Assembly: GCF_010499455.1 (NCBI RefSeq)
Contig: NZ_JAAGOH010000005.1
Span: forward strand, 62,001-126,000
Source of the DNA: Ideonella livida
GTDB taxonomy: Bacteria; Pseudomonadota; Gammaproteobacteria; Burkholderiales; Burkholderiaceae_C
DNA: 64,000 nucleotides
Direction of reading: 5' to 3'
Shown here: piece by piece, positions 5,582 to 25,192 of the stretch
Layout of the letters: the number at the start of each line of letters is the position of its first letter
Numbering within the stretch: position 1 is the first letter of the stretch
Notes under the pieces: generated by a model
Seen by the model: the letters and a program-made list of their open reading frames with translations, nothing else
Told to the model about the DNA's origin: nothing
The model's database searches: none
Made by a program: the position numbers and the translations under genes

Positions 5582-5671
5582 TGGTGCCCGGAACCGGGTT
5601 CGAACCGGTACGCCCTGATAAGGGGCGGCGGATTTTAAGTCCGCTGCGTCTGCCTGTTCCGCCATCCGGGC
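5582..5671 (-). tRNA. tRNA-Leu (anticodon UAA)
   Basis: The minus strand folds into a class II tRNA: acceptor GCCCGGA/TCCGGGC, anticodon loop CTTAAAA with anticodon TAA, a long variable arm, the GGTTCGAA T loop and an encoded CCA at 5582-5584 (90 bases with CCA). It reads UUA leucine codons. It is the last gene of the Gly-Cys-Leu cluster but lies behind an internal terminator, and no convincing promoter of its own is seen at 5672-5791. Confidence 0.95.
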
Positions 5672-5791
5672 GATTCACCTTGCCATGCCCAACCAGGGGC
5701 GGCCACCAAGGGCGCCACGCGACCTACACGGACAAGGTCACACCGCCCGGGACACGCGGCACTGCCTAGATGCCAGCCGATCGCACAGGCG

Positions 5792-5816
5792 AAAAAAAAG
5801 GAAGACAAGCTTCCTT
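5792..5816 (-). terminator. terminator inside the tRNA cluster
   Basis: Minus-strand stem AAGGAAG/CTTCCTT (arms 5810-5816 and 5798-5804, 7 bp, 5-base loop) is followed by six T residues. It sits between the last tRNA-Gly and tRNA-Leu(UAA), so Gly-Cys-Gly-Gly would be made in excess over Leu, or Leu depends on read-through. Confidence 0.75.
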
Positions 5817-5823
5817 CTTATTT

Positions 5824-5899
5824 TGGAGCGGGAAACGAGGCTCGAACTCGCGACCTCAACCTTGGCAAGGTTGCGCTCTACCAACTGAGCTATTCCCGC
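5824..5899 (-). tRNA. tRNA-Gly (anticodon GCC), copy 3
   Basis: A 76-base tRNA on the minus strand with acceptor GCGGGAA/TTCCCGC, D arm TAGCTCAGTTGGTAGAGC, anticodon loop TTGCCAA (GCC) and encoded CCA at 5824-5826. It reads GGC/GGU glycine codons. Its sequence is identical to the two other tRNA-Gly copies in the cluster. Confidence 0.97.
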
Positions 5900-5936
5900 A
5901 ACGCGTCTGGCCATTTCGGGCCATTCGGCAATGTAC

Positions 5937-6012
5937 TGGAGCGGGAAACGAGGCTCGAACTCGCGACCTCAACCTTGGCAAGGTTGCGCTCTACCAACTG
6001 AGCTATTCCCGC
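5937..6012 (-). tRNA. tRNA-Gly (anticodon GCC), copy 2
   Basis: Identical 76-base copy of tRNA-Gly(GCC) with encoded CCA at 5937-5939. It lies 37 bases from copy 3 and 6 bases from tRNA-Cys, consistent with a single processed precursor. Confidence 0.97.
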
Positions 6013-6018
6013 AGTACC

Positions 6019-6092
6019 TGGAGGCGCGATCCAGAGTCGAACTGGACTAGACGGATTTGCAATCCGTTGCATAACCGCTTTGCTATCGCGCC
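6019..6092 (-). tRNA. tRNA-Cys (anticodon GCA)
   Basis: A 74-base tRNA on the minus strand with acceptor GGCGCGA/TCGCGCC, anticodon loop TTGCAAA (GCA) and encoded CCA at 6019-6021. It is embedded between tRNA-Gly copies, as in the glyW-cysT-leuZ order known from enterobacteria. Confidence 0.97.
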
Positions 6093-6108
6093 CTGCCACC
6101 TGCAGCAC

Positions 6109-6184
6109 TGGAGCGGGAAACGAGGCTCGAACTCGCGACCTCAACCTTGGCAAGGTTGCGCTCTACCAACTGAGCTATTCCCGC
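6109..6184 (-). tRNA. tRNA-Gly (anticodon GCC), copy 1
   Basis: First gene of the cluster in the direction of transcription; identical to copies 2 and 3, with encoded CCA at 6109-6111. The promoter at 6280-6308 lies upstream, leaving a leader of roughly 90 bases. Confidence 0.97.
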
Positions 6185-12437: not shown

Positions 12438-12524
12438 TGGTGCGCGGGGCCGGACTCGAACCGGCACGCCCGTGAAGGCGTCAGGACCTAAACCTGGTGC
12501 GTCTACCAATTTCGCCACCCGCGC
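12438..12524 (-). tRNA. tRNA-Leu (anticodon UAG)
   Basis: An 87-base class II tRNA on the minus strand: acceptor GCGCGGG/CCCGCGC, anticodon loop TTTAGGT (TAG), long variable arm, encoded CCA at 12438-12440. It reads CUA and related leucine codons. A TAGAAT hexamer at 12649-12654 is a possible -10, but no good -35 accompanies it. tig follows in the same direction 28 bases later, so the two may share a transcript. Confidence 0.96.
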
Positions 12525-22448: not shown

Positions 22449-23990
22449 TCAGCCCTGGGCCGCCACCCGCTCCACGCTGGCGTGCAGCTTGTTCAGGGCG
22501 GCCAGGTAAGCCTTGGCAGAGGCCACCACGATGTCCGGGTCGGCCCCCACGCCGTTGACGACACGCCCCCCCAATTGCAAGCGGACCGTCACCTCGCCCT
22601 GGGATTCTGTGCTGCCGGAGGTGATGGCGTTCACCGAATAGAGCAACATCTCCGCCCCACTTTGGACTTGGGCCTCGATCGCCTTGAGGCTGGCATCCAC
22701 CGGGCCATTGCCCTCGGACTGACTGGTGACTTCCCGACCACCCATGGCAAAGGTCACCCTGGCCTGCGGACGTTCACCGGTCTCGGAATGCTGGTTCAGC
22801 GCCACCAGCCGGTAGTGCTCCTGCTCTGCCGTCACGCTCTCGTCGCCAACCAAGGCGATGATGTCTTCGTCAAAGATCTCACTCTTGCGGTCGGCAAGAT
22901 CCTTGAAGCGCGCAAAAGCGGCATTGATCTCAGCCTCTGACTCCAACTCCACACCCAACTCCTGCAGGCGCTGCTTGAACGCATTGCGCCCGGAGAGCTT
23001 GCCCAGCACGATCTTGTTGGCACTCCAGCCCACATCTTCGGCGCGCATGATCTCGTAGGTGTCACGAGCCTTGAGCACGCCGTCCTGATGGATGCCGCTG
23101 GCATGGGCAAAGGCATTGGCCCCCACCACCGCCTTGTTGGGCTGCACCACAAAACCGGTCGTCTGGCTGACCATGCGGCTGGCAGGCACGATCTGCGAGG
23201 TGTCGACACCGACATCCAGCCCAAAGTAGTCGCGGCGAGTCTTCACCGCCATCACGATCTCCTCCAGCGAACAGTTGCCTGCGCGCTCACCCAAGCCGTT
23301 GATGGTGCACTCCACCTGCCGCGCCCCACCCAGCTTGACCCCCGCCAGCGAGTTGGCCACGGCCATGCCGAGGTCGTTGTGGCAGTGCACCGACCAAATG
23401 GCCTTGTCGGCATTGGGCACACGCTCCCGCAGGTTGCGGATGAACTGGCCGTACAGTTCCGGAATGGCGTAACCGACGGTATCCGGAATGTTGATCGTCG
23501 TGGCACCTTCAGCGATAACGGCCTCGAGCACTCGGCACAGGAAATCGGGATCCGAGCGGTAGCCATCCTCCGGCGAAAACTCGATGTCACCGCAGAGGTT
23601 GCGCGCAAAGCGCACGGCTGACCGAGCCTGCTCGAGCACCTGCTCAGGTGTCATCCGCAACTTCTTTTCCATGTGCAGCGCACTGGTGGCAATGAAGGTG
23701 TGGATACGGCCACGGGCCGCTGGCGCCAGCGCCTCGGCGGCGCGGGAGAGATCGCGGTCATTCGCACGCGCCAGCGAGCACACGGTCGAATCCTTGATGT
23801 GCTGAGCAATCGTACGCACCGCCTCGAAGTCACCGTTGGACGACGCGGCGAAACCCGCCTCGATCACGTCCACCTTCAGGCGCTCGAGTTGCCGGGCGAT
23901 GCGGAGCTTCTCATCCCGGGTCATGGACGCCCCGGGAGACTGCTCGCCGTCACGCAAGGTCGTGTCAAAAATGATGAGCTTGTCGGTCAT
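22449..23990 (-). CDS. leuA: 2-isopropylmalate synthase
   Basis: A 513-residue LeuA that condenses acetyl-CoA with 2-oxoisovalerate, the first step of leucine synthesis. [14 protein letters not shown] at the N-terminus is the metal/substrate signature of the DRE-TIM family, [14 protein letters not shown] and [13 protein letters not shown] follow, and the C-terminal LeuA dimer domain for leucine feedback is present ([28 protein letters not shown], given here only as [10 protein letters not shown]...GPVDASLKA). The start [17 protein letters not shown] at 23988-23990 is set by homology; GGAGAG lies upstream. It is preceded by a 368-base leader with a leucine-rich peptide and a terminator, which suggests attenuation. 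Confidence 0.97.
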
Positions 23991-24174
23991 GTCGATCTCT
24001 CCGCCACAGGCTAGGAGGGAAAACGCCTGCAGCTTGAATGGATGAAGAAATGGGGAGCAACCCAAGCGCCAGGTGGCGGCTTACCGCTGGGCGGTGGCTT
24101 GATGTGGACGTAGTCGGAACATGAACTTAGGCTCCTGAGTGGACCCGCAGGCAGACGACAGAGGGTCAGGCGCC

Positions 24175-24213
24175 AAAAGGCAAACGGCCCGCTGCATGCG
24201 CTCGCGGGCCGTT
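24175..24213 (-). promoter_or_regulatory. leuA attenuator terminator
   Basis: Minus-strand stem AACGGCCCGC/GCGGGCCGTT (10 perfect bp, 11-base loop; arms 24204-24213 and 24183-24192) followed by TTTGCCTTTT. It starts 37 bases after the stop of the leader peptide. GCGGGC inside leader codons 17-19 (24257-24262) is the same as the outer arm of the terminator and can pair with GCCCGC of the inner arm (24204-24209), giving an antiterminator. It would stop transcription ahead of leuA when leucyl-tRNA is plentiful. Confidence 0.75.
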
Positions 24214-24249
24214 GATCCAGACAAGGACAATGAGTGGTTGGCGTATGGA

Positions 24250-24312
24250 TCAGCGTGCCCGCAGCAAAGCTAGGGGCAGCAGTAGCAGGGCCAAAACCAC
24301 AACATTCTCCAT
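24250..24312 (-). CDS. leuL: leuA leader peptide (20 aa, Leu/Val-rich)
   Basis: Minus-strand ORF of 20 codons, product MENVVVLALLLLPLALLRAR: eight leucines, seven of them within nine positions broken only by Pro and Ala, plus three consecutive valines. An in-frame ATG six codons further upstream would give a 26-residue form, and no strong Shine-Dalgarno precedes either start. It lies between pssA and leuA, just before a terminator hairpin, the classical place of an attenuation leader. Stalling of the ribosome at the Leu codons would leave codons 17-20 free to form the antiterminator; reaching the stop would mask them. The symbol leuL is used by analogy. Confidence 0.75.
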   Translation of the reverse strand: MENVVVLALLLLPLALLRAR

Positions 24313-24358
24313 ATACCAATGATATCCCATTGCGCTCGGGCCACGCCGCAGCGGCACC

Positions 24359-25192
24359 TCAGTGCAAACCCCGCTCATCGGGTTCATCGGTAGAGGTGGC
24401 GATGACACTGACCGGCTTGCCCTTGAGCTTGCGGTAGGCATAAACCCCGTAGCCGGAGAAACCGTACACACAGAAGAGTCCGAACAACACCATGGGCGGG
24501 TGGATGTTGATCACCGCGATGCCTAGGGCGATCAGGACGATCACGATGAAGGGCACACTGCGCTTGAGGCTGATGTCCTTGAAACTGTAGAACGGCACGT
24601 TGGTAACCATGGTCAGGCCGGCGAACAGCGCCACCGCAAAGGCCAACCAGGGCAAACCGGCCATGGCACTGACGCCCTTGTAGCCTGCATCGTCAAGCAC
24701 CCAGATGAAACCAATGACCAGCGCCGCCGCAGCCGGACTGGGCAAGCCCTGGAAATAGCGCTTGTCGACGATACCAATGTTGGTGTTGAACCTCGCCAGG
24801 CGCAACGCCGCGCAGGCGCAGTAGACAAAGGCGGCGATCCAGCCCGCCTTGCCCAGCCCTTTGAGGCCCCATTCGTACATGATGAGCGCCGGCGCCGCCC
24901 CGAAGCTGACCATGTCAGCTAGGCTGTCCATCTGCTCGCCGAATGCGCTCTGCGTGTTGGTCATGCGCGCCACACGTCCATCCAGGCTGTCGAGCACCGC
25001 GGCGCAGAAGATGCCGATACAGGCATTCTCGAAACGGCCATTCATGGCCATCACCACCGCATAGAACCCGCCGAAGAGGGCGGCCAGGGTGAACAAATTG
25101 GGCAGTACGTAGATACCGCGACGCCGAGGACGGTTCATTTCGACATCGGCCGCATCGGGCTCGTCGTCGACCTGGGATTCAGCAGAAGTCAT
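24359..25192 (-). CDS. pssA: CDP-diacylglycerol--serine O-phosphatidyltransferase
   Basis: A 277-residue integral membrane enzyme that makes phosphatidylserine, the precursor of phosphatidylethanolamine. The CDP-alcohol phosphatidyltransferase signature D-x2-DG-x2-AR-x-8-G-x3-D-x3-D is visible as LDSLDGRVARMTNTQSAFGEQMDSLAD (key residues DGRVAR, G, D, D). About six to eight hydrophobic segments follow. Start MTSAESQVDDEPDAADVE at 25190-25192 is preferred to a 41-codon upstream extension without homology. A terminator separates it from ilvC; leuA follows after the leader, an arrangement common in Burkholderiales. Confidence 0.94.
   Translation of the reverse strand: MTSAESQVDDEPDAADVEMNRPRRRGIYVLPNLFTLAALFGGFYAVVMAMNGRFENACIGIFCAAVLDSLDGRVARMTNTQSAFGEQMDSLADMVSFGAAPALIMYEWGLKGLGKAGWIAAFVYCACAALRLARFNTNIGIVDKRYFQGLPSPAAAALVIGFIWVLDDAGYKGVSAMAGLPWLAFAVALFAGLTMVTNVPFYSFKDISLKRSVPFIVIVLIALGIAVINIHPPMVLFGLFCVYGFSGYGVYAYRKLKGKPVSVIATSTDEPDERGLH

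Follow-up and report, generated by a model that had tools for sequence, protein, structure and literature searches.

A probable ribosome-mediated leucine attenuator upstream of leuA in Ideonella livida and related Burkholderiales

The leuA gene in the 64,000-nucleotide stretch of Ideonella livida DNA analysed here (the window) is very probably governed by ribosome-mediated, leucine-dependent transcription attenuation, as judged from its sequence. Directly before leuA lies a short leader ORF in which 8 of the 20 codons specify leucine, the end-product amino acid, with a biased choice of control codon (CTA). An intrinsic terminator stands between this ORF and leuA, and in folding models the window RNA can also form an antiterminator that is mutually exclusive with the terminator and whose upstream strand would be masked by a ribosome at the leader stop codon. 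The evidence comprises the sequence itself, codon bias, conservation, covariation in the terminator and pairing energies. An attenuator at this site had been proposed in an earlier reading of the window (hereafter the sequence-only reading), and that proposal is supported by the recurrence of the leader in 92 of 96 regions, by the CTA enrichment and by the covariation of the terminator.

Organization of the leuA upstream region

The gene order on the minus strand of the window is ilv genes, pssA, leader ORF and leuA; the ilv genes are putatively named from their ORF translations, and pssA, likewise putatively, follows the sequence-only reading. The features discussed below are as follows.

24359–25192, minus strand: pssA-like gene (context, outside the switch), from the ORF list; the order pssA–leader–leuA is kept in relatives
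24319–24324, minus strand: inferred -10 box TATCAT, 6 nt 5' of the leader ATG, from the sequence; position kept in relatives
24250–24312, minus strand: leader ORF MENVVVLALLLLPLALLRAR, CTA at codons 10 and 14, predicted to be leaderless, from sequence, codon bias and relatives
24246–24262, minus strand: antiterminator strand 2, GCGGGC-ACGC-TGATCCA, across the leader stop codon, from duplex energy
24204–24219, minus strand: strand 3, TGGATCA-ACG-GCCCGC, common to antiterminator and terminator, from sequence, alignment and duplex energy
24183–24213, minus strand: terminator stem-loop 3:4, from the fold and covariation in 80 sequences
24173–24184, minus strand: T-rich terminator tail TTTGCCTTTTGG, broken by GCC, from the sequence
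22449–23990, minus strand: leuA (2-isopropylmalate synthase), the regulated gene, from the ORF list; relatives used are 83–90% identical
12438–12524, minus strand: tRNA-Leu(UAG) gene, cognate to the leader CTA codons (context), from the window

The leader ORF runs from its ATG (24312–24310) to a stop codon ending at 24250 and contains, in addition to its leucine codons, three codons for valine. The 3' end of pssA lies at 24359, and the leuA ATG at 23990 is 259 bases past the leader stop. In the window, leuA is presumably not followed by leuBCD, as the sequence-only reading stated, unlike in the enterobacterial leu operon. Because the ilv genes and pssA lie upstream on the same strand, read-through transcription may also cross the leader.

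Between leader and leuA, AACGGCCCGC and GCGGGCCGTT form a hairpin of 10 perfect pairs with an 11-nt loop (24213–24183), followed by TGCCTTTT; the first two T residues of the tail TTTGCCTTTTGG are part of the stem, and the T tract is interrupted. On re-reading the sequence, the coordinates and codon counts of the sequence-only reading proved right, as did its description of a 20-codon ORF with eight Leu and three Val codons, of GCGGGC within leader codons 17–19 and of a perfect 10-bp hairpin with T-rich sequence behind it; the gap from the leader stop to the hairpin is 36 bases and not 37. A simple rule-based scanner reported neither promoter nor terminator at the site. It is blind to this terminator because its rule takes loops of 3–8 nt and the loop here has 11, and to the promoter because it requires a TTGACA-type -35 element, of which there is none here.

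In a chance test across the 64-kb window, the leader was the sole ORF rich in one amino acid and accompanied by a hairpin and T residues (this one ORF was found from two in-frame ATGs). Looser combinations of ORF and hairpin occurred in 8 of 20 dinucleotide-shuffled windows, none of them with at least eight Leu codons and at least 10 pairs. The 136-nt leader/hairpin region folds better than 200 of 200 dinucleotide shuffles (z -3.62), and the signal is weaker for the whole 331-nt leader (z -1.54, 6 of 100 shuffles being as good).

Conservation of the leader among relatives

The comparison covered 110 leuA regions: that of the window, those of 29 genomes from its family and 80 named loci. The named loci, among them Ideonella, Rivibacter, Rubrivivax, Acidovorax, Variovorax, Polaromonas, Hydrogenophaga and Limnohabitans, are the best 80 among the matches listed for the window leuA (protein query starting at 23987, one codon after the ATG), so that the sample leans to close relatives. 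Three duplicates or near-duplicates (L105, L040, L080) were left out, as were 11 short loci that end before the region 5' of the first synthase (L088, L095, L096, L097, L100, L104, L107, L112, L114) or at contig ends (L034, L052), which leaves 96 assessable regions.

An equivalent leader is present in 92 of these 96 distinct regions, window included (L009 and L070 being counted from non-ATG starts), and absent from L020, L054, L066 and L103, whose pssA–leuA intervals measure about 90, 48, 119 and 25 bases, respectively. The sequence-only reading had looked to such a comparison of pssA–leuA intervals for conserved Leu codons between variable flanks, and this is the pattern observed: the Leu codons persist, and the N-termini and lengths of the peptides vary. 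The 92 leaders were chosen with a score that includes CTA; alignment A1 takes in 80 of them, omitting twelve whose starts are shifted or uncertain.

In several genera a second synthase, 25–29% identical, lies between pssA and leuA; the leader is then found 5' of that synthase, which sits between leader and leuA wherever the locus extends far enough. Such an isopropylmalate synthase-like gene directly 5' of leuA was seen in L006, L007, L012, L013, L016, L033, L042, L045, L048, L049, L052, L053, L062, L067, L069, L071–L073, L077, L079, L085, L088, L095–L097, L100, L104, L107, L112 and L114. A separate observation concerns the Rfam ilvH RNA (RF02993), which occurs farther upstream, and not at the leader, in two of seven relatives (L026:513–580 and L023:742–809) and is not among the Rfam matches of the window.

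Leucine control codons

The codon bias of the leaders is most cleanly assessed in 58 leaders chosen on Leu content with CTA ignored, which gives an unbiased figure. In these, CTA accounts for 124 of 271 Leu codons, against 6 of 2219 for the leuA genes that follow them (about 1530 bases of each gene), an enrichment of more than 100-fold, and each of the 58 contains at least one CTA. Seven genes of the window use CTA for 5 of 275 Leu codons. The corresponding statement that all 92 leaders have CTA is partly circular, because the selection score includes that codon. In all 81 leaders with a recognisable strand-2 core (a set scored with CTA; the core is absent in the other 11 of 92), a CTA lies 12–30 nt 5' of the core, a distance that fits a stalled ribosome with its footprint leaving strand 2 free. 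The window also carries, at 12438–12524, the gene for tRNA-Leu(TAG), which decodes the CTA control codons, as well as a tRNA cluster at 5582–6184 (Leu-TAA, three Gly-GCC, Cys).

Transcription start

A Shine-Dalgarno-like 4-mer precedes the ATG in none of the 92 leaders, versus 64 of 92 leuA (or first-synthase) starts. In 67 of the 92, a -10-like box of the TGnTAnAnT kind, mostly TGnTACATT-like in the relatives, ends 6–7 nt 5' of the leader ATG. The window box, TATCAT at 6 nt, is without the TG extension, and the window is outside the 67 for that reason. From this arrangement we infer that transcription of the leader begins with the AUG or a single base upstream of it, and that the leader is probably leaderless. 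The sequence-only reading had held that a transcript start downstream of the hairpin would speak against an attenuator; the predicted promoter would instead lie upstream of the ORF.

Terminator and antiterminator

In the window the terminator has an energy of -22.3 kcal/mol, and a hairpin with a T tail occurs in 89 of the 92 leader regions. Among the 80 sequences of A1, 94.9% of the cells of the terminator helix are paired, 64 cells show double changes versus 10.7 in shuffles, and 4 of the 10 pairs covary with compensatory changes.

The antiterminator is formed in the window by GCGGGC-ACGC-TGATCCA and TGGATCA-ACG-GCCCGC, a duplex of -27.6 kcal/mol (z -6.57, none of 150 shuffles as good) that is stronger than the terminator. 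The pairing of GCGGGC with the inner terminator arm, which the sequence-only reading had described, is thus right in placement and partner, and strand 2 is longer than it had supposed, running beyond the leader stop. That reading had also looked for compensatory changes in both stems; the terminator supplies them, and for the whole antiterminator across the 80 sequences the compensatory evidence is weak. The core CGGGC/GCCCG is kept in 75–80 of the 80 rows and, being almost invariant, says little by its pairing alone. The sixth pair is A-U in 41 rows, G-C in 8 and U-A in 1, with no pairing in 30; around half of the rows leave the inner part of the antiterminator unpaired. Taken complete, the 13-pair helix has six double-changed pairs where shuffles give 5.2, and 197 of the 500 shuffles reach six. 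It exceeds nearly all shuffles in double-changed cells (33, against 17.0), in covariation score (0.090, against 0.073) and in the fraction of paired cells (66.8%, against 64.3%), but slid controls give similar numbers of double-change cells (29 and 34). Sequence by sequence, the 2:3 pairing reaches p ≤ 0.05 against shuffles in 15 of 35 and 28 of 57 members of two sequence groups, a modest signal for each sequence.

The folding states of the window RNA were modelled with an assumed ribosome footprint of 12–14 nt. With a ribosome at the leader stop, the terminator folds and is preceded by a 4-bp hairpin. With stalls at codons 7, 9, 10, 11 and 12 and RNA made up to strand 3, the antiterminator fold reaches -25.7 to -28.0 kcal/mol, and with a stall at codon 14 only -17.4 kcal/mol. 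At equilibrium, the full window RNA adopts the terminator, and stalls at codons 7, 9, 10 and 14 lead to mixed states, so that the switch must rely on the order of folding.

The 5' half of the leader ORF can also pair with the spacer after the stop codon (24312–24214; -22.1 kcal/mol, none of 150 shuffles as good). This pairing possibly represents, on the model, a default structure of the window RNA when translation does not take place. As a general feature of the family it was rejected, with 13 of the 92 leaders at p ≤ 0.05 and a mean z of -0.46.

Proposed mechanism

In the course of events that we propose, in which transcription start, ribosome stalling and leucine dependence are all predicted, transcription would begin at or next to the AUG of the leaderless 20-codon leader. 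When leucyl-tRNA is plentiful, the ribosome would reach the stop codon and cover strand 2, the 3:4 terminator would form and RNA polymerase would halt before leuA. When leucyl-tRNA is short, the ribosome would stall within codons 7–12 (CTA at codon 10) and leave strand 2 free to pair with strand 3 ahead of the synthesis of strand 4, allowing read-through into leuA. An untranslated leader of the window, with the 5' half of its ORF paired to the spacer, would favour termination, an effect that would not be general in relatives.

Distribution in other Burkholderiales

Covariance model R1 finds a single strong site in the genome of the window, namely the window site itself, with E 6.7e-11 against 0.23 for the runner-up. 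Among 300 genomes from the order, 25 match at E ≤ 0.01, and the 11 strong full-length matches comprise eight in the family of the window and three in one genus of another family; at least one genome of the window's family among the 300 (G088) is without a match. In 185 genomes of the class there are six matches, full-length in only two, both of the window's family.

A pattern-based search found a related Leu-rich peptide in 28 of 58 leuA upstream regions from other Burkholderiales families, spread over 26 of the 45 families sampled. These outside leaders are probably leaderless, and many of their peptides end in about GLLLRPAR-stop, mostly coded CTGCTGCTGCGC. Examples are the leaders of L150, L151, L157, L160, L163, L166, L170 and L174, and further ones those of L179, L186, L187, L189, L190, L198, L206 and others. 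Selection of the outside (class-two) leaders was partly visual; 38 were listed, and 31 of them, of the terminator-less kind, were aligned. A Shine-Dalgarno-like 4-mer is absent from all 38, and CTA makes up 25 of their 264 Leu codons, far below its share in the relatives of the window. For 28 of the 31 terminator-less leaders a -35/-10 pair is placed for a leaderless start. A weak terminator-like hairpin is present in only four of the 31, the consensus fold has essentially no structure (-0.75 kcal/mol), and the first 30 bases past the stop codon contain much C and little G (364 and 116 of 930, respectively). Five leaders with CTA from two other families (L126–L128, L181, L182) all have a terminator-like hairpin, so that the version with an intrinsic terminator is not confined to the window's family. 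The terminator-less leaders are unexplained by classical attenuation and, as most outside leaders are without an intrinsic terminator, these must work differently.

Alternative explanations and a fifth strand

The position of the hairpin behind pssA invites the reading that it merely ends the ilv-pssA transcript, the ORF being fortuitous and the leuA promoter lying farther down, and the simple scan indeed reports no promoter upstream of the ORF, though none downstream of it either. A plain terminator would, however, need no Leu codons, no -10-like box placed mostly 6–7 nt before an ATG and no complementary strand within an ORF, and the recurrence of that ORF in relatives, with CTA enriched as described, makes this account extremely improbable. 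The leader might otherwise act mainly by another route, such as Rho-dependent termination, translation coupling, or a peptide or short RNA working in trans in the manner of peTrpL from Sinorhizobium meliloti. For that system, leader RNAs that are leaderless and act in trans are on record (PMC7298713), and most of the related leaders examined in other Burkholderiales families have no intrinsic terminator; set against this is the terminator of 89 of the 92 leader regions and its covariation, in view of which we regard such a route as very unlikely to be the main one. Attenuation of leuA by a translating ribosome stays the preferred reading.

A further element would add to attenuation and not replace it. 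In many relatives, L026, L030, L033, L041, L053, L063 and L098 among others, a fifth strand located 8–25 nt beyond the terminator stem covaries with the terminator and can pair with the first bases of its 3' arm and the adjoining 3' portion of its loop. This pairing reaches p ≤ 0.05 in 38 of 84 testable sequences (p ≤ 0.01 in 21), none of 2000 permutations of partners among species reaches the observed total, and 52 of the 84 form helices of 7 bp or more, 40 of which are distinct. Against single swapped partners, on the other hand, only 23 of the 84 sequences place their own partner in the top 5%, and strand 5 is not detected in the window (p 0.585). Since strand 5 is made after the termination decision it cannot influence that decision, and since a T run follows it in only 15 of 52 it is usually no second terminator. 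That relatives possess a five-strand switch, in which strand 5 locks the read-through RNA open or acts after transcription, is a conceivable extension to which we give somewhat less than an even chance; the role as open-state lock or as an effect on the mRNA is a guess.

It may further be speculated, on balance doubtfully, that one ancestral leaderless Leu-rich leuA leader came to serve two uses, with a terminator/antiterminator switch that has CTA and often a fifth strand in one, and elsewhere a terminator-less form that would suggest leucine sensing through Rho or the nascent peptide.

Comparison with known attenuators

The leucine attenuator, well supported here, is ordinary in principle; its occurrence in this lineage is new as far as the literature searched goes. 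The full-text literature searched did not describe any leuA attenuator from Burkholderiales, although an earlier mention elsewhere is possible. The Leu_leader family of Rfam (RF00512) has no match in the window at the gathering threshold, none on the region at E ≤ 10 and none in seven relatives at E ≤ 1. Five leader peptides, that of the window and four from other families, gave no Pfam match and a single, unrelated NCBIfam match (E 3.1). The leaders are short, probably leaderless and, in these five cases, without a family model, and are therefore easily missed. With them, leuA of a large betaproteobacterial group gains a specific, testable leucine sensor, as predicted here.

A 2013 survey (PMC3766115) gives Rfam attenuators only for His, Leu, Thr and Trp and proposes an origin in the Gammaproteobacteria, and a review (PMC6123439) states that branched-chain genes in various Gram-negative bacteria are preceded by putative leader peptides and terminators. 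Among individual systems, the S. aureus attenuator of branched-chain genes likewise has a leucine-rich peptide, in a Gram-positive bacterium and together with CodY control (PMC5794164). The S. meliloti trpL leader (rnTrpL/peTrpL) shares with the window a transcript from the AUG (predicted here), a short peptide and attenuation (PMC7298713), and differs in its amino acid (tryptophan), its target (trpE(G)), its alphaproteobacterial host and the trans functions shown there. The actinobacterial leuA leader (LEU element; LeuL1 of S. lividans) is also Leu-rich and placed before leuA, and LeuL1 is leaderless (PMC8079986, PMC1262725), a property predicted for the window leader. It is without a typical terminator, a pseudoknot having been proposed, and is in this respect nearer to the leaders of other Burkholderiales families than to that of the window.

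The closest counterpart in logic is the enterobacterial leu attenuator (RF00512; S. Typhimurium, E. coli leuL), which likewise has a short Leu-rich leader before leuA and an intrinsic terminator with an antiterminator (PMC6123439) and, in S. Typhimurium, rare CUA control codons (PMC1183508). In comparison with leuL, as described in those sources, the window leader has 20 residues instead of 28 and no Rfam or Pfam match. It is, moreover, probably leaderless, and its strand 2 extends across the leader stop codon. As the covarying fifth strand and the terminator-less relatives show, the enterobacterial attenuator is not merely duplicated here.
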